A DNA stretch of 34,868 bases, taken from positions 1 through 34,868 of the forward strand of contig CAMYMN010000066.1 of NCBI GenBank assembly GCA_947259395.1. Direction: 5' to 3'. The DNA comes from an uncultured Gammaproteobacteria bacterium. Lineage in GTDB: Bacteria; Pseudomonadota; Gammaproteobacteria; Arenicellales; JAANXG01. Within the stretch, counting starts at the first letter, position 1; every line of letters begins with the position of its first letter. A model generated the notes under the pieces. It was not told the origin of the DNA and did no database searches. It saw nothing but the letters and a program-made list of their open reading frames with translations. Position numbers and translations under genes: made by a program. Positions 253-10,530 of the stretch are shown in pieces.

Positions 253-1215
253 ATGTCGAGGGGTGAACAAGCACGTTGGGATGATGCCAATCAACCCGAT
301 TCGGGGGGTGCCTGCGTAGAGCCTCGGGCTGCGGGCGACGAACCGGTTCGCGGCGCCAAGAGCAAGTCGCGGACCTCGCAGTCTTCCAGTTCCAACGCCA
401 CACAGATCTATCTGCGGGAGATCGGTCATACCCCGTTGTTGTCTGCCGATGAGGAGGTCTATTACGGACGCCTTTGTCAGCAGGGCGACTTCAAAGCACG
501 CCAACGCATGATAGAGAGTAATTTGCGTCTCGTGGTCAAGATTGCGCGCCGCTACCTCAACCATGGATTGTCGCTACTAGACCTCATCGAGGAAGGCAAT
601 CTAGGCTTGATCCGTGCAGTTGAGAAATTTGATCCCGAGCGCGGATTTCGTTTCTCGACCTATGCGACTTGGTGGATTAGGCAGACCATAGAACGGGCAA
701 TCATGAATCAAACCCGCACCATCCGCTTGCCGGTGCACATCGTCAAGGAAATGAACGTCTATCATCGTGCGGCGAAGCGACTCGCGCAGCAATTGGATCA
801 CGAGCCCACCGCGGAAGATATTGCCACAAAACTGGACGTGCCTATCAGTGAAGTCAAACGCATGCTGGGACTCGAAGAAAGCATCACATCCATTGATGCG
901 CAGCTGGATTCCGACTCCGAACGAACACTGGTCGAGATCATTCCCGACGAAGCCGCCACCGATCCCGCTGATCTGCTCCAGAACAAAAAAGTGCTGGGGC
1001 ACATTAACGAATGGCTGGGATCGTTGAACGAAAAACAACGCGAAGTCATAGAACGCCGATTTGGGATCGGTGGGCGAAATACATCCACCCTGGAACAAGT
1101 TGGCAAGGACGTCGGCGTGACCCGTGAGCGGGTCAGACAGATTCAAGTGGAATCGCTGGCGAAGCTTCGTGAAATGCTCGAGGCCCGCGGCTTCTCACTC
1201 GAAAATCTATCCTAG
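253..1215 (+). CDS. rpoS: RNA polymerase sigma factor RpoS
   Basis: Stationary-phase/general stress sigma factor of the sigma-70 family, directing core RNA polymerase to stress promoters. The protein is 320 residues. Region 1.2 begins near residue 50 (TQIYLREIG). Region 2 follows with [36 protein letters not shown] and [19 protein letters not shown], almost identical to known RpoS. Region 3 and a region 4 helix-turn-helix ([19 protein letters not shown]) complete it. The frame is open upstream to 151, but ATG 253 is preferred because GAGG lies at 241-244 at good spacing and the upstream residues have no family similarity. The N-terminal ~45 residues are hydrophilic and not conserved. RpoD is excluded by size and by the lack of the long region 1.1 and nonconserved insert. 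An imperfect palindrome overlaps the stop (1213-1225). Confidence 0.96.
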
Positions 1216-1622
1216 CGGTCCGCTAACACCGGCGCAAAAGAAAGGAAATGGGGTCTGTCCCCTGGTCTTCTCTCCAGCACGGGGAAGTGGAATTAGAGGC
1301 GGGCTCTTGGCGTCCATCATGTCCCCCACGGTTTTGCAACATTTTTTAAAAGAGTACGGCAAAGACGCGATAGCCTCAACAATAGAAAGACAATTAGATC
1401 AAATTATCACGTCAAAAAAATAACTACACCGATCGCGTTTCCTTCAATAGCTTTGAGGGATTATACTTCTTGTCCGTCTACAACAAGTAGGAGCTCAACG
1501 GCGGCGGCTTCATTAAGGAGCGTTAACCTTCCTACGAATCGATGTCTATTCATGCGAAGACGTGGAGCGTGGGTTGACGTGAATTCAGAGTCCTTCCCTA
1601 CCCAACCACCGGAGACGTGACG
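1216..1622. other. Intergenic region with a short REP-like palindrome
   Basis: This 407-base gap contains GGGG-TCTGT-CCCC at 1250-1262, a motif type often seen in REP-like repeats of gammaproteobacteria. A 34-codon reading frame at 1319-1423 has no recognisable family. The remainder presumably carries the promoter of the following four-gene operon, but no clear promoter could be assigned. Confidence 0.4.
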
Positions 1623-2567
1623 ATGCCACAAAGTCCATGGAAGCAAGTCTTTACGCCCTTTAAGAAACCCTTCTCGATGCCGTTCTACTACGACGCGGTG
1701 TCGTTTTTCTGGACCTATTTTTCCGTGCCGATGGAGCGTGTCGAGCCGCATTTGACGGGCACAGGACTCACTGCCGCTCGTTTCACGGATCTAGAAACAG
1801 ACGATCACGCAATCGTCTCGTTGAACTTCCAGAACTATCTGTCCAACCTCGGGATGCTGCTCACGACCGTGCTGGAGGTCGAGTTCAACATTCATTGCTT
1901 CCCGACGTCCAAGGAACATGAGACACCGCTGATGTCTTTCAGAGAATACCTCATGGGTCAGGAACAGACGAAGTGGATTGGCGGTTTTCGGCTCCATGTG
2001 CCGGCGGACGATGAAATCGCGGTAAAAGCGGGAACATTGATGTTTGGTGAGCGCAAGTTCAAGACCGGCTTCACATTCAACGTGCCGGTCGCTAACAATC
2101 CCAACCCGCCGAAGGGAGAAGAGTGGCGCTGGGTATACACGGTGTTCGATCCGTCGGTTGACGTTAACAAATCGCCGAACTCTTCCGACTTCATCTACCG
2201 CCTCAAGGCGAATCTGGATCATCTCGGACGGCCCACGATGACTAACCCGTCGCCCTTGACCCTGTACAGCCTGCTGCCGGGTGGGAAAGATCACCCGCCG
2301 GGCTTTGGGACGCTCAACTTGTCGCGCTGGAACATCTTCGGCTTTGACAAGACGTGGTTCGACACCGATAAGAGCAGCTGGACCGATAGCCATGGCCACC
2401 AGCAGCCGGTCGTCAAGGTCGAGTGCGGGGAGAGCACCCACGCGATGCGCAAGGACACGCAAGACATCATCGGCGATATCCCGGCGTGTGCCGTGCGCTA
2501 CTACCAGTCTCCGCCTGCGGCGGTCGAAAACCGCGCCTTTTGGGCTGACGGTCCAAAGCCCGACTAG
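1623..2567 (+). CDS. Acetoacetate decarboxylase-like protein
   Basis: First gene of a four-gene operon; 314 residues. The frame is open from a GTG at 1617, but ATG 1623 lies eight bases after GGAG (1611-1614) and is the better start. The N-terminal pattern (FYYDAVSFFWTYFSVP, then a hydrophobic strand around TAARF) and the central segment (RLHVPADDEIAVKAG followed by LMFGERKFKTGFTF) resemble the acetoacetate decarboxylase beta-barrel superfamily. There, a lysine in a PKKLG-type motif forms the Schiff base; the RKFK lysines here sit at about that place. It is longer than classical enzymes (~245 residues), with an insert rich in aromatic residues in the C-terminal half. It could be a decarboxylase, aldolase/dehydratase-like relative or a non-catalytic binding protein. 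No signal peptide is seen. The stop is one base before the next start, indicating coupled translation. Confidence 0.5.
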   Translation: MPQSPWKQVFTPFKKPFSMPFYYDAVSFFWTYFSVPMERVEPHLTGTGLTAARFTDLETDDHAIVSLNFQNYLSNLGMLLTTVLEVEFNIHCFPTSKEHETPLMSFREYLMGQEQTKWIGGFRLHVPADDEIAVKAGTLMFGERKFKTGFTFNVPVANNPNPPKGEEWRWVYTVFDPSVDVNKSPNSSDFIYRLKANLDHLGRPTMTNPSPLTLYSLLPGGKDHPPGFGTLNLSRWNIFGFDKTWFDTDKSSWTDSHGHQQPVVKVECGESTHAMRKDTQDIIGDIPACAVRYYQSPPAAVENRAFWADGPKPD

Positions 2568-2568
2568 C

Positions 2569-3063
2569 ATGGAAACTGATCGAATCGACCCCCTCGAGGA
2601 CTTCGTCGGGCTCTCGGCGGTTCTGACCGGATTCGAGACAGCGGAGCTGCACGGCACCGGGTTGGTCGAAAGCCACTACAAGACGATCCTGGATATTCTC
2701 GGCGAACGCATCTTCGGGCGCCTGCTGTTGACCTGGAGGCAGATCCGCGAAAGCGAAGCGAACGACGTGGACTTCGATGTGCGCAAGAAGATCCTCGAGA
2801 ATTCGTTGCTGGGACCGGTCGCTCGCAACATTCTGGTTCTTTGGTATACCGGTAACTGGAACCAGATGCCGGGCGAGTGGCGGGACCAGTACGGTGCGGC
2901 GGCCGGCGATCGGACGCGCGTAGTTTCGGCTGCGGCCTACCGACAAGGGCTCGTGTGGCGGGCGGTCCTCGCCCATCCACCGGCGGCCAAGCAGCCAGGC
3001 TTCGGTTCTTGGACGCCGCCCCCGGAGGGAGCCGACGAAATCGACGATGAGTGGCGGCAATGA
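2569..3063 (+). CDS. FAD-linked sorbitol dehydrogenase-type small subunit
   Basis: A 164-residue protein resembling the small subunit that accompanies membrane or soluble GMC dehydrogenases (FAD-SLDH / gluconate dehydrogenase subunit 3 type). The family-like features are an N-terminal FVGLSAVLTGF helix, a TGLVESHY segment, and the ARNILVLWYTGNW block near residues 88-100. Members of this family usually carry a Tat signal peptide; none is present here, so the complex is probably cytoplasmic. Start ATG 2569 follows the previous stop by one base, and its end overlaps the GMC gene by 17 bases. That is strong evidence that the two products are made in stoichiometric amounts. The likely role is maturation or stabilisation of the flavoprotein. 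Family assignment is by pattern only. Confidence 0.6.
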   Translation: METDRIDPLEDFVGLSAVLTGFETAELHGTGLVESHYKTILDILGERIFGRLLLTWRQIRESEANDVDFDVRKKILENSLLGPVARNILVLWYTGNWNQMPGEWRDQYGAAAGDRTRVVSAAAYRQGLVWRAVLAHPPAAKQPGFGSWTPPPEGADEIDDEWRQ

Positions 3064-5026
3064 CGGGAACACGCCACGGAGCAACCAGCAAGGTTCGGCA
3101 GAGTCGTCCGAGGGAGGGGTCACCTTGGCCAGTCCCGTGACACGCGCCCATCCAGCGGCCGCTGAGCGAATCTACGATGTCGTTATCGTCGGCGCGGGCG
3201 TCGCGGGAGCTATACTGGCCAAGGAGCTGGCGGGAGCCGGGAAAACGGTCCTACTGTTGGAAGCGGGCCGAGCGACCAGTATCCGGCCCGAGGGCTATGC
3301 CTCATATGTAGAGACCTTCTACGAGGCCCTAGCCAAGACCCCCAACTCGCCGTTTCCGCAGAACCCCGCGGCTGCTTCGTCATCTGTTCTCTTCCAGCAA
3401 CGGCCCCGCGAAGGCGTCCCGGTTACAACGGGTTATCAAGTTTACAAATACAGGAAACCGTGCCAAGGACCGTCCGAGAGTGGGCTGCCCTTCCTGAGCA
3501 CCTTTACTAGGGCGCTCGGCGGTACCACGCTGCACTTTCTAGGTACCTGCATTCGGATGCTGCCAGAGGACTTCCATCTCGCGACCTTGTTCGGCCACGG
3601 CATCGACTGGCCCTTCGGCTTCGAGACATTGGAACCGTTCTACGAAAAGGGCGAGCTCGAAATGGGTACCGCCGCTGACGTGGCCATGCAGGAACGCGAG
3701 GGCACGAAGTTCCGGCCCGGATATCAATACCCGATGCGCCAGATCCCCCCCTCCTACTTCGACCGCTGGCTGGAGGACCGGATCCGAGGCATGACCTTCA
3801 AAATGGGCAATGAATCGTTCCCAGTGGAGGTCGTAGGCACGCCCGCCGGACGCAACGGCATGCCCAATCCGGGGTACAGATACCCGAAGGAACATCCGCT
3901 CGCGGGTCAACCTTACCAGCCGATCGGCTCGCCGTACGACACGCGCCGCGGTCAGCGTTGTGAGGGCAACAGTAACTGTGTGCCGATTTGCCCGGTGATG
4001 GCCAAGTACAACGCGCTGCGCACGCTCTATACTCTCCAGCCCAAAACCAGCCGCAACCTGGAGATCATCACCCAAGCGGTGGCGTCGCAGATCGAGCTTG
4101 CCGAAGACGGCAAGGTTAGCGGAATCGTCTGCAAGCTATATGACGTCGAGACCGGGAGTCAGTATGTGAAGTTCACCGCCAGAGGCCAGGTCTATGTAGT
4201 CGCGGCGCACGCCATCGAGAGTGCGAAGCTATTGCTGGCCTCGGGCGCCGCCAACAGCAGCGACATGGTCGGGCGGAATCTCATGGACCACCCTTATCTT
4301 CTTACCTGGGGTCTCGCCCCGAAGGGCGCGCGGCTCGGCGTCAACCGGGGCCCTCAGATCACCTCCGAACTGCCGATGCGACACGGCAGTTTCCGCAAAG
4401 ACTTCGCCGCGTTCCGCGCGGACATCCGCAACCGGGGTTGGGATTTTGCCAAGGGCTCGCCCTACTGGGACGTCGGCATGCTGGTCAATGATGAGCAGCG
4501 GTTCGGCCTGAGCCTCCGCGACGAGCTGCGTGACAGGGTCCAACGACAAATCTCCTTCGGCTTCCAGATCGAGCAGCTACCTGATCCCGACAATCGCGTC
4601 GAGATCGATGACAAGTATCGCGATGCGCTCGGCAACCACAGACCTATTCTCAGCTATGACGTTTCCGAGTACACACGCAAAGCGATGCGGGTCGCGCGGG
4701 ACCTTTCTCGGAGTGTCATCGAGCATGTCGGCGGCAAAGACCACACCGAGTACCCCAAGCGGCCCAAGGAGGCCGTCGGATATATCGATGTCGGCGGCGA
4801 GCCCTTCGAGATTCATGGTTCCGGCCACATCATGGGAACGCACCGCATGGGATTGCGCCGCTCAGACTCCGTTGTTAATCCGGATCAAAGAACCTGGGAT
4901 CATCGCAATCTCTTCCTTGTCGGCTGCGGCAACATGCCGACAGTGGGCACCTCGAATCCAACCCTAACGGTCGCCGCGCTTGCCTTCAAGGCGGCCAAGG
5001 CGATCAAGAAACAGCTCGAAAGCTAG
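3047..5026 (+). CDS. GMC-family FAD-dependent oxidoreductase (large subunit)
   Basis: A 659-residue glucose-methanol-choline type flavoenzyme. The ADP-binding Rossmann motif is GAGVAG at residues 49-54, with the ribose-binding acid E72 in LLLEAGR. The C-terminal GMC domain carries GHIMGTHRMG (H594, H599) and NMPTVGTSNPTLT with N637; a His/Asn pair of this kind acts as catalytic base and partner in the family. A cysteine cluster, RCEGNSNCVPICP near residues 305-317, is typical of the gluconate 2-dehydrogenase/sorbitol dehydrogenase branch. The first ~40 residues are low-complexity and polar, with no export signal. It overlaps the small-subunit gene by 17 bases. No cytochrome c subunit follows, unlike periplasmic sorbitol dehydrogenases, so the electron acceptor may be oxygen or a soluble carrier. 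Substrate unknown; the ATG 3047 start is set by the overlap. Confidence 0.9.
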   Translation: MSGGNDGNTPRSNQQGSAESSEGGVTLASPVTRAHPAAAERIYDVVIVGAGVAGAILAKELAGAGKTVLLLEAGRATSIRPEGYASYVETFYEALAKTPNSPFPQNPAAASSSVLFQQRPREGVPVTTGYQVYKYRKPCQGPSESGLPFLSTFTRALGGTTLHFLGTCIRMLPEDFHLATLFGHGIDWPFGFETLEPFYEKGELEMGTAADVAMQEREGTKFRPGYQYPMRQIPPSYFDRWLEDRIRGMTFKMGNESFPVEVVGTPAGRNGMPNPGYRYPKEHPLAGQPYQPIGSPYDTRRGQRCEGNSNCVPICPVMAKYNALRTLYTLQPKTSRNLEIITQAVASQIELAEDGKVSGIVCKLYDVETGSQYVKFTARGQVYVVAAHAIESAKLLLASGAANSSDMVGRNLMDHPYLLTWGLAPKGARLGVNRGPQITSELPMRHGSFRKDFAAFRADIRNRGWDFAKGSPYWDVGMLVNDEQRFGLSLRDELRDRVQRQISFGFQIEQLPDPDNRVEIDDKYRDALGNHRPILSYDVSEYTRKAMRVARDLSRSVIEHVGGKDHTEYPKRPKEAVGYIDVGGEPFEIHGSGHIMGTHRMGLRRSDSVVNPDQRTWDHRNLFLVGCGNMPTVGTSNPTLTVAALAFKAAKAIKKQLES

Positions 5027-5030
5027 TTTC

Positions 5031-6200
5031 ATGAACATACCAACGATCAACACTCTCGACAGTCTTAGAAGGCACGTACAGTACGCGCTGGCGGTCGAGC
5101 ATTTCACCGTTCCTCCGTACCTCTGCGCGCTCTACTCCATCCCCGAAGACACCAACCGCGAGGCTACCTCGGTGATCCAGAGCGTGGTCATGGAGGAAAT
5201 GCTCCATATGGTGCTGGTGGCGAATCTGCTCAACGCCATCGGCGGAAAAGCGAAGCTGAATCATCCGTCCTTCATCCCCACCTACCCGAATTATCTCCCG
5301 CACAGCGCTCGCGACTTCCAGGTCTCGCTCGGGAAGTTCTCGCGGTCAGCGATCGCGACCTTCATGAGGATCGAAAGACCGGAGAAAACGGACGCACCGC
5401 CGGAGGGTGACTACTTCCACTCCATCGGCCAGTTCTACGCGGCGGTCCGTGATGGCCTCAAGTATCTGGTCGATCAGGAGCAGAAACACGGTGGGGAACG
5501 AGTCTTCTCGGGCGACTCTGCGCTCCAGATCACTCGCGAGTACTACTACGGTGGGGCCGGAGTGATCACGGTGATTAAAGACCTGGAAACCGCGGAACAC
5601 GCCATTAGAGAGATTGTCGACCAGGGAGAAGGACGGCCCGGCGAAGTATTCAATGATGACAACGACAAGGAAGTCCGAGGGCCGGGCATGCGACAGCCCG
5701 ACCAACTCGAACCGACTCGCCAGGAGCCGGCGGGTACCCACGCGGGAGGTTATCTCGAAGCGCAGCACCACAAGAATTTCTCGGGCGAGGAAGAGCCGGC
5801 CCACTACTACCGGTTTCAGGAGCTGTTCGAGGAACGCTACTATCAGGCAGGAGACACTCCGGAGACCGGGCCTAGGGGTCCCGAACTACCCTTGCTCTGG
5901 GACAACGTTTACAACATGCGGTCAAACTCCAAGGCCAGTGACTATGCCGAGGGTAGCCAGATCCGGCGAAAGCTCGACGGGTTCAACCACTGTTACATGC
6001 GGCTCCTGGACGGGCTTCAATCGGCATTCTGTGGCAAGCCGGCGGAGATAGTCCGCGCCGTCAGTCTGATGTACGAGGTAAAGGAACGGGCCGTGGAGTT
6101 GATGCGAATCCCTTCGGGCGATGGCGACACCACCGTCGGTCCAAGCTTCGAATACGTCCCGCCGAAAAGAGACCCAGGCGGTTCGCAGGCGCTCAGCTGA
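5031..6200 (+). CDS. Ferritin-like protein of the VioB/RebD (iminophenyl-pyruvate dimer synthase) type
   Basis: A 389-residue protein starting four bases after the GMC stop; the ribosome binding site is weak, suggesting coupling. The N-terminal ~200 residues match the ferritin-like domain of VioB/RebD/StaD-type proteins: AVEHFTVPPYLCALYSI (E23), an ExxH motif in EEMLHMVLVANLLNAIGG (E56, H59), and a PSFIPTYPNYLP segment. A later helix, AEHAIREIVDQGEG, could supply further metal ligands, with HYYRFQELFEERYY after it. In indolocarbazole and violacein pathways such proteins couple two indole-derived imines. Stand-alone relatives occur beside GMC oxidoreductases, with unknown chemistry. The protein lacks the large N-terminal catalase-like part of true VioB. 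It is the last gene of the operon. A diiron or haem centre is inferred, not shown. Confidence 0.75.
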   Translation: MNIPTINTLDSLRRHVQYALAVEHFTVPPYLCALYSIPEDTNREATSVIQSVVMEEMLHMVLVANLLNAIGGKAKLNHPSFIPTYPNYLPHSARDFQVSLGKFSRSAIATFMRIERPEKTDAPPEGDYFHSIGQFYAAVRDGLKYLVDQEQKHGGERVFSGDSALQITREYYYGGAGVITVIKDLETAEHAIREIVDQGEGRPGEVFNDDNDKEVRGPGMRQPDQLEPTRQEPAGTHAGGYLEAQHHKNFSGEEEPAHYYRFQELFEERYYQAGDTPETGPRGPELPLLWDNVYNMRSNSKASDYAEGSQIRRKLDGFNHCYMRLLDGLQSAFCGKPAEIVRAVSLMYEVKERAVELMRIPSGDGDTTVGPSFEYVPPKRDPGGSQALS

Positions 6201-6796
6201 CTACTCGGTGCTCGGCGCGAGCCGTGCCCTCCCAATACATGCACCCGCCCCAGCGTGCAAGACAATTTTTTGTCTGATGTAGTGGTCCAACAATTTTTAC
6301 CGTTCCCACATTTTCGTAGTTTGACGATTGGTGTCGAAGCGCGTTCGAGACGTTCCCACGTCTCGTAGTCTCCCTTGATGAGCCTAAATGTGCGACGCTC
6401 GCCTTGCTCCCGCGTATCAACGTTACGTTGGACGCCGGTAAAATTGCATGCCACTATCTCTTACGACCGTAGTTGGCGAGATACCCTCGATTAAACGGAT
6501 CATGCGGCACACCCAGCACATCAAAACACTATCCTATTATATTCACCATCGTATTTCTGCAGTTATAATTCGCTACCCTGTGTGGCCTAATCAGCAATTC
6601 TGTTTGTACTTTCGCGATATTGAAAACCGACTCCGGAAACATGTTATGACGGTGTCCTGTATCAATACGTTAAACGGGGCCTTGGATTCCAGGAATAAAA
6701 CAGTATGGGACCCAACGGATAGAACCTGTAAGCGGTGCTGCCGTAGCCCCATATACATGAAGATGTAGTAATACCTCGTCCGAGGAAGAAGCTAGA
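6201..6796. other. Intergenic region after the four-gene operon, with hairpins
   Basis: About 600 bases with noticeably lower GC than the flanks. A perfect 8-bp stem with TCCC loop lies at 6346-6365, and a small AGACAA/TTGTCT palindrome at 6260-6275. A direct repeat beginning CGTTCCCAC recurs at 6301 and 6351. A 106-codon frame at 6448-6768 shows no family similarity and is not called. The 3' part probably contains the promoter of the cyclase gene. Confidence 0.45.
6346..6365. terminator. Possible hairpin terminator of the four-gene operon
   Basis: A perfect inverted repeat CGAGACGT-TCCC-ACGTCTCG, 146 bases after the stop of the ferritin-like gene. There is no U-tract after it, so it is at best a Rho-dependent or processing-protective hairpin. 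Confidence 0.35.
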
Positions 6797-9700
6797 TTGC
6801 AGTGTTCTCAATGCCATGCGGAGAATCGGGATGGACGGCGCTTCTGCGCCGAATGCGGAGTGCCGCTTGCAATCGTATGTCCCGACTGCGCCTTTACCAA
6901 TGACCTAGGTGAAAAGTTTTGTGGCGGCTGTGGTAAAGCTTTGGCAGTCGCAGCATCGGCGAGCGCCGCCAAGACTAAATCTTTACGGGCGGAATCAAAA
7001 AGCCCCCTGCCGACACGCAACTCAGGTCCCGCAGGCGTTCATGAATCCGTCGCAACCGAGGCCGAACGCCGCCAGCTCACGGTGATGTTTTGTGACTTAG
7101 TCGGTTCCACGGCGTTGTCGCAGCAGCTCGACCCCGAAGATCTGCGCAACGTCTTCGATAGTTATCAGCAAGCGGCGGGTGAGGTCATCGACCGCTACGA
7201 TGGTTTCATTGCCAAGTATATGGGCGATGGGATGCTCGTCTATTTCGGTTATCCGCGCGCGCACGAAGACGATGCTGAGCGTGCGATACACAGCGGTTTA
7301 GAGATCATTGCGACCATGAAGGAATTAAACACGAGTCGCAGCCACGAGAAAGGCGGAGAACTGGCGGTACGAATCGGAATCGCCACTGGCCTGGTGGTGG
7401 TCGGGAAAGGCGCATCAGAGGATGCGGCGATAGTCGGCGAGACACCGAACCTAGCCGCGCGTCTGCAGACGATCGCGAACGCGAATACCGTCGTGATTGG
7501 AGAAAGCACACGTGACTTGGCGGGCGGTATGTTCGAGTACGCCACTGCCGGTACCCACGACCTGAAAGGTTATGTGAAGCCGGTTCAGGTATGGCGCGTG
7601 GTGCAAAAAAGCACAGCGAAAAGCCGTTTCGAGGCTACGGTCAAGCGTGGGTTGATGCCGCTCGTTGGGCGTGAAGAAGAAATTGCACTTCTACTAAAGC
7701 GCTGGACGCAGGCAAAAGATGGAGAAAGCCAAGTAGTGTTACTTGCGGGTGAAGCCGGCATTGGAAAATCACGTATCGTGCGCGCGTTCAGAGATCGTGT
7801 GCTGGATGAGCCTCACAACCGCATACTGTATTACGGCTCGCCTTATCATCAAAACAGCGCCTTCTATCCGGCGATCGATCAAATTGAGCGCGCTATGCGG
7901 TTTGATAAAGATGATAGTCCCGCGCAAAAGCTCAACAAGATAGAGGCTGTGCTAGACGACCTGAGTCTAAGCAAAGCAGAACTTGCACCACTGCTTGCGT
8001 CGCTTTTGTCGTTACCAACAAACGATCGTTATCCTCCCGTCCTGTTCGGTCCTGAGCAAATAAAAAAGGACATAATTGACGCGCTGGTCACCATAATCGA
8101 AACAATGGCCTCTCGAAATCCAGTGATCATGGTGATTGAGGACGCGCAATGGGTCGATCCGTCGACGTTGGAACTTATCGACCTTGTGATCGAGAAATTG
8201 CGATCCTCCCGATTTTTACTGGTGATCACTTCTAGACCGGAGTTTGAAGCGCGCTGGGGGGGATCCGTCCAACCTACGCTGCTTACACTGAATCGAATGA
8301 GCCGCAAAGAGATCATAGGAATGGTGGAGGAAGTGACCCGGGGTAAGGTCCTGCCCGATGCGGTGCTCAACCATATCATCACCAAGACCGATGGTGTGCC
8401 ACTGTTCGTCGAGGAACTCACAAAGACTGTACTCGAGTCGGACCTGCTCCAAGATATAGGGGAGCGGTATGTGTTATTGGACTCCCTGCCAGAACTGCCA
8501 ATTCCGGCCTCGCTCCAGGACTCCCTGATGGCACGATTGGATCGATTGGCAACGGTCAGAGAAGTGGCACAGCTTGCCGCGACTGTGGGGCGGAACTTCA
8601 ACTTTGAGCTATTGGCAGCGGTGTCACCTCTTGGGGACCGAGAGCTCAGAGACGCACTTGCGCAACTACTGGAGGCAGAACTGATTTACCACCGCGGCTT
8701 ACCTGCCGATGAAGAATACGTGTTCAAGCATCTCATGGTGCAGGAGGTGGCCTACCAGACGTTACTCAAGACCACTCGTCAGCGATACCACGCGCGTATC
8801 GCGAAAGCGCTCTTGGAGCAGTTCCCGCAGACAGTCGAAAATCAACCGGAAGTCCTCGCCCATCATTACACCGAGGCACATCTTGCTAAAGAGGCCATTG
8901 GCTACTGGCAACAAGCCGGTCAGAAAGCAGTAGCGAGCTCGGCAAATCTGGAAGCAATCGGCCACCTCAATCAAGGTTTGAAGTTGCTAAATACCCTGCC
9001 GGACACGCCCGAGCGTGTCGAACAGGAACTAAAGCTACAGCTCACCTTGGCGGTGCCACTCACCGCAACATCCGGTTACGCCGCCCCGGAAGTGGAGCAC
9101 GCTTATAAACGAGCCCGTCAACTGTCTCAGCAGATGGGCCAAACGCCGCAACTTTTTCCTGCCCTATATGGCTTGTGGCGATACCGTTGTTTGCGGGCCG
9201 AGTACAAAACGGCTCTTGAGCTGGGCAAGGAACTTCTAAAACTGGCTCAAGATTTGCAAGACACGGCGTTCGTAATGGCATCGCATCGAACGCTTGGGGC
9301 GACATTCTTTTATCTCGGAGAATTGAGCGATTCCCGTGCCCATCTTGCGCAAGTGATAGACAATTTATCCAGGGACCAAAGTAGCCCAACTCAGCTGATC
9401 CAAGAAGCATACGACGTTATTGATCCTCGTGTCGCCAGCCGATCATACATGTCGTGGGTGTTATGGCTGTTCGGTTATGCGGACCAAGCGCGGCAGGCGA
9501 GTCGCGAAGTGGTTGCCCTAGCCCAGACGCTCGCTCATCCTTTTAGTATGGCGTTGGCACTCAGCTTTGCCGCGTGGCTACATCAGTTTTGTCGTGAGGA
9601 ACAGCAAACCCGGGAATGCGCGGAGGCGGCAATTTTACTTGCCCGCGAGCAGGGTTTTCCATTCTGGGTGGGATGGGGAGAAGTGCTGCGAGGCTGGGCG

Positions 9701-10195
9701 CAGCCGCAGCTCGGGCAAGACTATGAAGAGATAGTCGCGCAAATGAAACAAGGCGTGGTCAATTGGCGGGCTCAGGGATCGGAATTGGGGACCGCTTATT
9801 TTCATACGTTGCTGGCCGACGTGCACAGGAAACAAAGACAGACAGAAGAAGGGCTGGATGCGGTGGCGGATGCGCAGGCGTTTACCAGGAAAACTAACGA
9901 ACGATTCTTGGAGACTGAGCAATTTCGGCTCAAAGGAGAGTTGTTGCTGCAACGAAACGATGCGAGCACGGTAGAGCCCGAATCCTGCTTTCGGCAGGCG
10001 CTTGATGTTGCTCGCCATCAGCAGGCCAAATCACTTGAACTGCGCGCAGCGACAAGCCTGGCACGTCTTTGGAGCGAACAAGGTAAGCGCACCGAAGCAT
10101 ACGAGTTGCTCGCACCGATCTATGGCTGGTTCACGGAAGGCTTTGATACACAGGACTTGGGAGACGCGAAGACGCTTTTGAAGCGGCTCGCATAA
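6797..10195 (+). CDS. Class III adenylate/guanylate cyclase with AAA ATPase and TPR domains
   Basis: A 1132-residue multidomain signalling protein starting at TTG 6797, behind GAGGAAG at 6782-6788. Residues 1-50 hold two zinc ribbons (C3, C6, C17, C20 and C28, C31, C42, C45). Residues ~90-270 form a class III nucleotide cyclase domain, with metal-binding D100 (MFCDLVGST) and D144 (YMGDGMLVYFG). From ~288 comes an AAA/STAND-type ATPase with Walker A GEAGIGKS (318-325) and a Walker B-like VIEDAQWVD. The rest is a long alpha-helical TPR-like region. This architecture is widespread in proteobacteria and actinobacteria as a presumed sensor that couples ligand or protein binding to NTP hydrolysis and cyclic nucleotide output. 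No transmembrane segment is visible, so it is cytoplasmic. It stands alone; the input signal is unknown. Confidence 0.92.
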   Translation: MQCSQCHAENRDGRRFCAECGVPLAIVCPDCAFTNDLGEKFCGGCGKALAVAASASAAKTKSLRAESKSPLPTRNSGPAGVHESVATEAERRQLTVMFCDLVGSTALSQQLDPEDLRNVFDSYQQAAGEVIDRYDGFIAKYMGDGMLVYFGYPRAHEDDAERAIHSGLEIIATMKELNTSRSHEKGGELAVRIGIATGLVVVGKGASEDAAIVGETPNLAARLQTIANANTVVIGESTRDLAGGMFEYATAGTHDLKGYVKPVQVWRVVQKSTAKSRFEATVKRGLMPLVGREEEIALLLKRWTQAKDGESQVVLLAGEAGIGKSRIVRAFRDRVLDEPHNRILYYGSPYHQNSAFYPAIDQIERAMRFDKDDSPAQKLNKIEAVLDDLSLSKAELAPLLASLLSLPTNDRYPPVLFGPEQIKKDIIDALVTIIETMASRNPVIMVIEDAQWVDPSTLELIDLVIEKLRSSRFLLVITSRPEFEARWGGSVQPTLLTLNRMSRKEIIGMVEEVTRGKVLPDAVLNHIITKTDGVPLFVEELTKTVLESDLLQDIGERYVLLDSLPELPIPASLQDSLMARLDRLATVREVAQLAATVGRNFNFELLAAVSPLGDRELRDALAQLLEAELIYHRGLPADEEYVFKHLMVQEVAYQTLLKTTRQRYHARIAKALLEQFPQTVENQPEVLAHHYTEAHLAKEAIGYWQQAGQKAVASSANLEAIGHLNQGLKLLNTLPDTPERVEQELKLQLTLAVPLTATSGYAAPEVEHAYKRARQLSQQMGQTPQLFPALYGLWRYRCLRAEYKTALELGKELLKLAQDLQDTAFVMASHRTLGATFFYLGELSDSRAHLAQVIDNLSRDQSSPTQLIQEAYDVIDPRVASRSYMSWVLWLFGYADQARQASREVVALAQTLAHPFSMALALSFAAWLHQFCREEQQTRECAEAAILLAREQGFPFWVGWGEVLRGWAQPQLGQDYEEIVAQMKQGVVNWRAQGSELGTAYFHTLLADVHRKQRQTEEGLDAVADAQAFTRKTNERFLETEQFRLKGELLLQRNDASTVEPESCFRQALDVARHQQAKSLELRAATSLARLWSEQGKRTEAYELLAPIYGWFTEGFDTQDLGDAKTLLKRLA

Positions 10196-10530
10196 GATTT
10201 TCGAGACCGAGTCTGGACAGGGTCGACGTCTTTTATGGCGGCCTTGACGAAATGCCCCGGGTGACTTTTGCCTAACCACATCATTAGTTGCTTTATCGTG
10301 CGCTAGCGGTTTAAGTGATCTCTTTGTTACCTGATTTACTCCCAGCACCGAGGCCGACTAGTGACCCTCGCCATTGGCTAATGTACATCGCAAAAACAGT
10401 GAAGACCGTCTACAATCTAATACTTGTTTTCGTTCGTTACCCATGCCGATGCCGAACGTCAATAGATCAGGTAGTCGTGCTGATCCGAACAAAACTAAAG
10501 ATACCCTGCAAGTTTCTGGAGAACTGTGAA
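10196..10530. other. Intergenic region between cyclase and OB-fold gene
   Basis: No gene, repeat or strong terminator is recognised in these 335 bases. The frame of the downstream gene is open to 10315, but that part has no signal-peptide or family character. The region likely carries the promoter of the secreted OB-fold protein. Confidence 0.4.

Follow-up and report, generated by a model that had tools for sequence, protein, structure and literature searches.

The question raised by this locus is what four adjacent genes, for a decarboxylase-like protein, a small subunit, a GMC flavoenzyme and a ferritin-like protein, do together, and where the electrons taken up by the flavoenzyme go. The window, i.e. 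the whole stretch of 34,868 nucleotides analysed, is contig 66 of a source genome that comprises 222 contigs and 4.1 Mb.

Layout and distribution of the cassette

The four genes of the cassette and the gene that follows them were arranged as listed here.

Gene 1, 1623-2567, plus strand: ADC-fold protein of 314 aa, with K145 and E85 conserved.
Gene 2, 2569-3063, plus strand: small subunit of 164 aa, a distant relative of the FDH/FAD-GDH small subunits.
Gene 3, 3047-5026, plus strand: GMC dehydrogenase large subunit of 659 aa, with C305/C311/C315 and H594/N637.
Gene 4, 5031-6200, plus strand: PF12902 ferritin-like protein of 389 aa, with E23, E55, E56, H59, E115 and H258 conserved.
Cyclase gene, 6797-10195, plus strand: protein of 1132 aa with a double zinc ribbon, a cyclase and an AAA ATPase, cassette-associated in some lineages.

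All four cassette frames were open, and the spacings between genes 1 and 2, 2 and 3, and 3 and 4 were 1, -17 and 4 bases, exactly the plus-strand operon layout of the original prediction. Its four family assignments were also upheld, by Pfam for genes 3 and 4, by a family profile for gene 2 and by the predicted ADC fold for gene 1. A promoter scan of 1200-6800 gave 5 sites, compared with 2.0 on average in shuffled sequence. None of these was a plus-strand promoter upstream of gene 1; one was predicted upstream of the cyclase gene (6542-6569). Terminators in the same region were not above shuffled sequence, and neither a tRNA nor an Rfam RNA was found in the window.

A gene 1 alignment scanned against 84,980 species genomes gave 41 loci. 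From the record titles, we take these to represent Verrucomicrobiota, Bacteroidota, Acidobacteriota, Cyanobacteriota, Myxococcota, Actinomycetota, Pseudomonadota and Bacillota. Gene 3 was present in 39 of the 41 loci, gene 2 in 37 and gene 4 in 27. The original prediction had been staked beforehand on finding the neighborhood in other genomes, and all four genes were found together in 26 of the 41. This recurrence indicated that the arrangement is more than chance, and a chance neighborhood was ruled out.

The window's gene order, with gene 1 first and genes 2, 3 and (where present) 4 following, was seen in 10 of the 41 loci (L036 without a detected gene 2; L027 and L028 contig-cut). In 29 others gene 1 came last or, in L017 and L019, was divergent; two Skermanella loci (L030 and L038) held gene 1 alone. 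Three loci (L021, L027 and L028) were truncated by contig ends. In one record, from Enterobacteriaceae bacterium 89 (L023, 8324-10843), genes 4 and 1 formed a single frame of 839 residues.

Among relatives of the window genome, 2 of 100 had gene 1 and 4 of 145 had PF12902 above its cut-off, the window's own genome being counted in both. This rarity pointed to horizontal spread of the cassette. One of the 41 loci, L029, titled as an uncultured gammaproteobacterium, is likely the same as contig 130 of G005, a congeneric genome, judging by its position and its match to the window. A 140-base stretch upstream of both cassettes (window 1282-1421; L029 1725-1864) was 72% alike in surroundings that differed, and was not a tRNA by ARAGORN.

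Several other genes were seen around the cassettes. In five loci (L013 and L022-L025) the cassette was extended by a second gene 3 copy, one more GMC gene and a UbiD-like gene, which Pfam assigned to UbiD in L023. Genes for a LodA-type quinoprotein oxidase and a LodB-like flavoprotein lay near the Chryseobacterium cassettes (L007, 1381-4528, assigned by Pfam; L008, 1380-4527, assigned by likeness). Two protein families adjoined Bacteroidota cassettes, one of about 308-345 aa (L007, L008 and L014-L017) and one of 515-518 aa (L011, L012 and L014-L016); the single member of each that was scanned had no Pfam match. A small gene of the antibiotic-biosynthesis-monooxygenase type was located inside the gene 1-first cassette of L041 (8696-9043) and near that of L045, a Ruegeria plasmid (4937-5305).

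The dehydrogenase unit and its ADC-fold neighbor

Gene 3 was a GMC oxidoreductase (PF05199, E 1e-19; PF00732, E 1.6e-13), and its sequence neighborhood was made up of sugar dehydrogenases and pyranose oxidases. It aligned with the alpha subunit of BcGDH (6a2u_B, E 1.6e-68) over a span that included the cysteine loop and the His/Asn pair. In the accessible text of PMC6719666, Cys212/218/222 of BcGDH hold a surface 3Fe-4S cluster that hands electrons on to the electron-transfer subunit, with His476/Asn519 as the likely catalytic residues. The gene 3 cysteines were kept at C305 and C311 in 45 of 45 alignment rows and at C315 in 44; H594 and N637 were present in 43 of the 45, the other two rows being cut by contig ends and having gaps there. 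From this sequence pattern, the three cysteines of gene 3 would carry a [3Fe-4S] cluster.

Gene 2 alone scored 12.6 bits against an FAD-SLDH cut-off of 24.2. FAD-SLDH was matched by 10 of 20 members of the gene 2 family at E <= 0.05, the window's own not included. The best solved match of the family profile was the small subunit of fructose dehydrogenase (7w2j_B, E 4.8e-4), and 6a2u_A was matched at E 0.11.

The cassette thus has in common with BcGDH (PDB 6a2u) and FDH (PDB 7w2j) the FAD motif, C-x5-C-x3-C, the His/Asn pair and a homologous small subunit. Unlike these complexes, it had no twin-arginine motif and no cytochrome gene in the window, and its operon included a ferritin-like gene and an ADC-fold gene. 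The original prediction had claimed the absence of export signals and of a cytochrome subunit, and both claims were supported. By motif scan, genes 1-3 had neither twin-arginine nor strongly hydrophobic N-termini; gene 2 showed no RR in its first 40 residues and no strongly hydrophobic stretch at the start. No CXXCH cytochrome gene was present in the window, where the motif occurred, among frames of at least 60 aa, only in the zinc ribbon of the cyclase. A periplasmic sugar-alcohol dehydrogenase was ruled out because neither a twin-arginine motif nor a cytochrome gene was there. The simple motif scan also found no twin-arginine export signal in genes 1-3 of the 41 loci, the single twin-arginine-like match falling in L006, within a gene 4 frame that was over-long.

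In two rhizobial plasmid regions, relatives of genes 2, 3 and 4 had as neighbors a GH15 gene and a gene annotated as iolE, the product of which was a TIM-barrel protein by Pfam in L049. A sugar isomerase/epimerase was also among the neighbors, and no gene 1 was found in the two stretches. Together with the GMC and UbiD neighbors in L013 and L022-L025, this suggested that the downstream enzyme linked to the dehydrogenase unit varies, the ADC-fold protein being the one in the window. We infer that the substrate class is polyhydroxylated, a sugar- or cyclitol-like alcohol.

The ADC fold of gene 1 came from its predicted structure. The window protein had no Pfam match, and no solved relatives were found by sequence or profile. 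ADC (PF06314) was matched by 10 of 31 gene 1 relatives at E <= 0.01, and the best score noted among them was 27.8 bits, below the cut-off of 29.8. The fold is common to the ADC superfamily (ADC, MppR, the Streptomyces bingchenggensis aldolase-dehydratase and Swit_4259). Gene 1 of the window differed from that superfamily in falling below Pfam detection, in being about 50 residues longer than its solved chains, and in an apparent change of the second lysine to phenylalanine.

Members of PF06314 have a Schiff-base lysine and a neighboring lysine. In a weak profile alignment (E 0.027, probability 1.8%), K145 fell on the first of these and F146 on the second. Since the second lysine is apparently replaced in this alignment, aldolase- or dehydratase-type Schiff-base chemistry would be as likely as decarboxylation. 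The decarboxylation suggested in the original prediction was thus kept as an option, with the apparent loss of the second motif lysine standing against it.

Gene 4 and the electron acceptor

Gene 4 matched PF12902 at 205.9 bits (gathering cut-off 22.3). It shared this domain and its fold with CC_0557 (PDB 3hl1), with 29% aligned identity, and after 3hl1 the best-ranking fold matches were Dps-like proteins and bacterioferritins. The protein may bind iron. The domain also forms part of the C-terminal portion of VioB, and gene 4 fell far below the VioB model (TIGR04492): it scored 33.4 bits against a cut-off of 1250, with residues 47-202 on model positions 668-813 of 1003. VioB membership was ruled out by score and length, and the label 'VioB/RebD-type' in the original prediction held for one domain.

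PF12902 proteins were also found in other settings. Of 120 gene 4 relatives listed (P0059-P0178, from 2120 found), 64 had a CDGSH motif, and these 64 were at least 565 residues long. One fusion, P0102 (47% identical to gene 4), combined PF12902, zf-CDGSH and Fer4_19 by Pfam; such proteins have the same ferritin-like domain as gene 4, but carry an iron-sulfur carrier on the same chain. PF12902 and CDGSH motifs were likewise on one chain in L116 (1495-3306) and L054 (1486-3381), and in the stretches read no cassette-type gene 3 was near them, L054 giving a weak match only. The text available for PMC5859297 mentions combinations of ferritin-like and CDGSH domains, and that for PMC4417212 describes PF12902 genes in the vicinity of lodA/lodB in fungi. 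Around gene 4 relatives outside the cassette, the short stretches read mostly contained no gene 3 relative. It was missing from 8 of 20 loci in one set (the other 12 being cassettes), from 13 of 14 in a second and from 8 of 9 in a third, where the ninth gave a weak match.

Within the cassette, the distance matrices of genes 2, 3 and 4 were closely correlated (r 0.81 for genes 2 and 3, 0.84 for 2 and 4, 0.84 for 3 and 4; 23-29 loci), and those of gene 1 more weakly (0.44, 0.59 and 0.46 with genes 2, 3 and 4), all values being inflated by shared descent. None of 2000 permutations reached the r value of any gene pair.

Ten loci lacked gene 4 and were neither cut at its position nor reduced to gene 1 (L009, L018, L020, L021, L026, L035, L037, L042, L043 and L044; L021 was contig-cut at the opposite end). 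Six of the ten contained a member of a family (comp 12) whose proteins have a single CXXCH motif, compared with one of the 27 loci with gene 4; the six were not independent, as two were Symploca records and L043 and L044 appear to be the same contig binned twice. The comp 12 proteins, of 440-587 residues, lay near the cassette in L009, L018, L021, L026, L031, L043 and L044. The members scanned had no Pfam family, so that the label 'haem-c' rests on the CXXCH motif. A second CXXCH family (comp 8) stood alongside gene 4 in 6 of the 27 loci, and in L033 a gene assigned to cytochrome c by Pfam lay immediately upstream of gene 1. In the gene 4-less Streptomyces loci (L020, L035, L037 and L042) neither CXXCH family was found. 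Whole-genome searches of three gene 4-less carriers (L018, L020 and L035) gave no PF12902 match.

We tentatively favor a single oxidation pathway, in which the dehydrogenase works with its small subunit, gene 4 takes the electrons in place of a cytochrome, and gene 1 acts on the ketone. Genes 3 and 2 would form a cytosolic FAD/[3Fe-4S] dehydrogenase that converts an alcohol resembling a sugar or cyclitol into a ketone. The electrons would pass through the iron-sulfur cluster of gene 3 to gene 4 instead of to cytochrome c, and O2 may be the final acceptor or a co-substrate there. The gene 1 lysine would then bind the ketone as a Schiff base, leading to cleavage, dehydration or decarboxylation.

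It is unlikely, in our estimate, that gene 4 is instead an iron-dependent oxygenase or oxidase acting on the dehydrogenase product in sugar or cyclitol breakdown, with the electrons going to quinone or another carrier. The rhizobial neighbors (GH15, the iolE-annotated protein and the sugar isomerase/epimerase) would suit such a role, as would the fusions of its relatives to CDGSH carriers, its fusion to gene 1 in L023 and the frequency of PF12902 without gene 3. On the other hand, its distances track both dehydrogenase subunits, and the cassettes that lack it often hold a CXXCH protein. A non-catalytic accessory, supplying iron to the iron-sulfur dehydrogenase or protecting it, is a poorer candidate that we consider improbable. 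The ferritin fold, with its Dps-like and bacterioferritin matches, and the agreement of distances with genes 2 and 3 are in its favor, but the fusions to CDGSH/Fer4_19 and to gene 1 would be better suited to catalysis.

The least probable was the idea of the original prediction that the cassette produces a natural product through oxidative coupling of the VioB/RebD kind: the VioB match over residues 47-202 and a Robertmurraya locus (L032, 1241-20765), where the cassette lies among AMP-ligase, Old-Yellow-Enzyme-type, transporter and glycosyltransferase-like genes with the look, mostly judged by eye, of a biosynthetic cluster, agree with it, but the likeness is limited to one domain, the score is far below the cut-off, and the dehydrogenase is of the sugar type. 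Coupling was therefore not retained as the leading reading. Electron transfer to gene 4 was the better idea, since gene 3 keeps the iron-sulfur cysteines that feed a cytochrome in its relatives.

The adjacent cyclase and the meaning of the cassette

The original prediction did not include a link to the cyclase gene at 6797-10195. A cyclase also stood beside gene 1-first cassettes in L005 (42% identity, convergent), L029 (92%) and L033 (43%, contig-cut), and a relative with 36% identity lay upstream of the cassette in L045. It therefore adjoined 5 of 12 gene 1-first cassettes (10 of the 41 loci, the window and L045); in the other 31 of the 41 loci no match was found. The window genome had 29 matches to the cyclase, of which 3, counting the gene itself, reached E <= 1e-200. 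Such cyclases are thus common there, and any single adjacency could be chance.

The cyclase blocks of the window (6502-10199) and L029 were 90% identical over 3.7 kb, whereas the proteins of genes 1-4 were 33, 34, 41 and 42% identical. A near-identical cyclase beside such different cassettes suggested that the two belong together, or that the cassette has been exchanged as a unit. The cyclase may sense or control the cassette. In L034, the gene next to the cassette encoded a Ser/Thr kinase with TPRs.

A fuller version of the favored pathway would have a cytosolic GMC dehydrogenase with the ferritin-like protein as its dedicated acceptor, leading from [3Fe-4S] to O2 chemistry, an ADC-fold lyase acting onward and, in some lineages, control by the zinc-ribbon cyclase/ATPase. 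With all these parts taken together, we regard it as doubtful.

A known product for homologous clusters would have spoken against the original prediction; none was found in searches of the open-access literature, nor was a description of the cassette. PMC6515984 and PMC13001252 were judged, from their accessible portions, unrelated to it. The best-supported reading is that the cassette represents a so far undescribed variant of the FAD/[3Fe-4S] dehydrogenase complexes, in which a ferritin-like protein stands in for the cytochrome and an ADC-fold protein is a further partner. According to the text available for PMC9727119, complexes of this kind are investigated for use in glucose sensors, as they hand electrons on directly. 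If this reading is true, the ferritin-like partner without a cytochrome would reveal an alternative wiring for this enzyme class. It would also give PF12902 proteins a testable role outside violacein-type pathways, and provide a functional setting for an ADC-fold subfamily that Pfam misses in the window.
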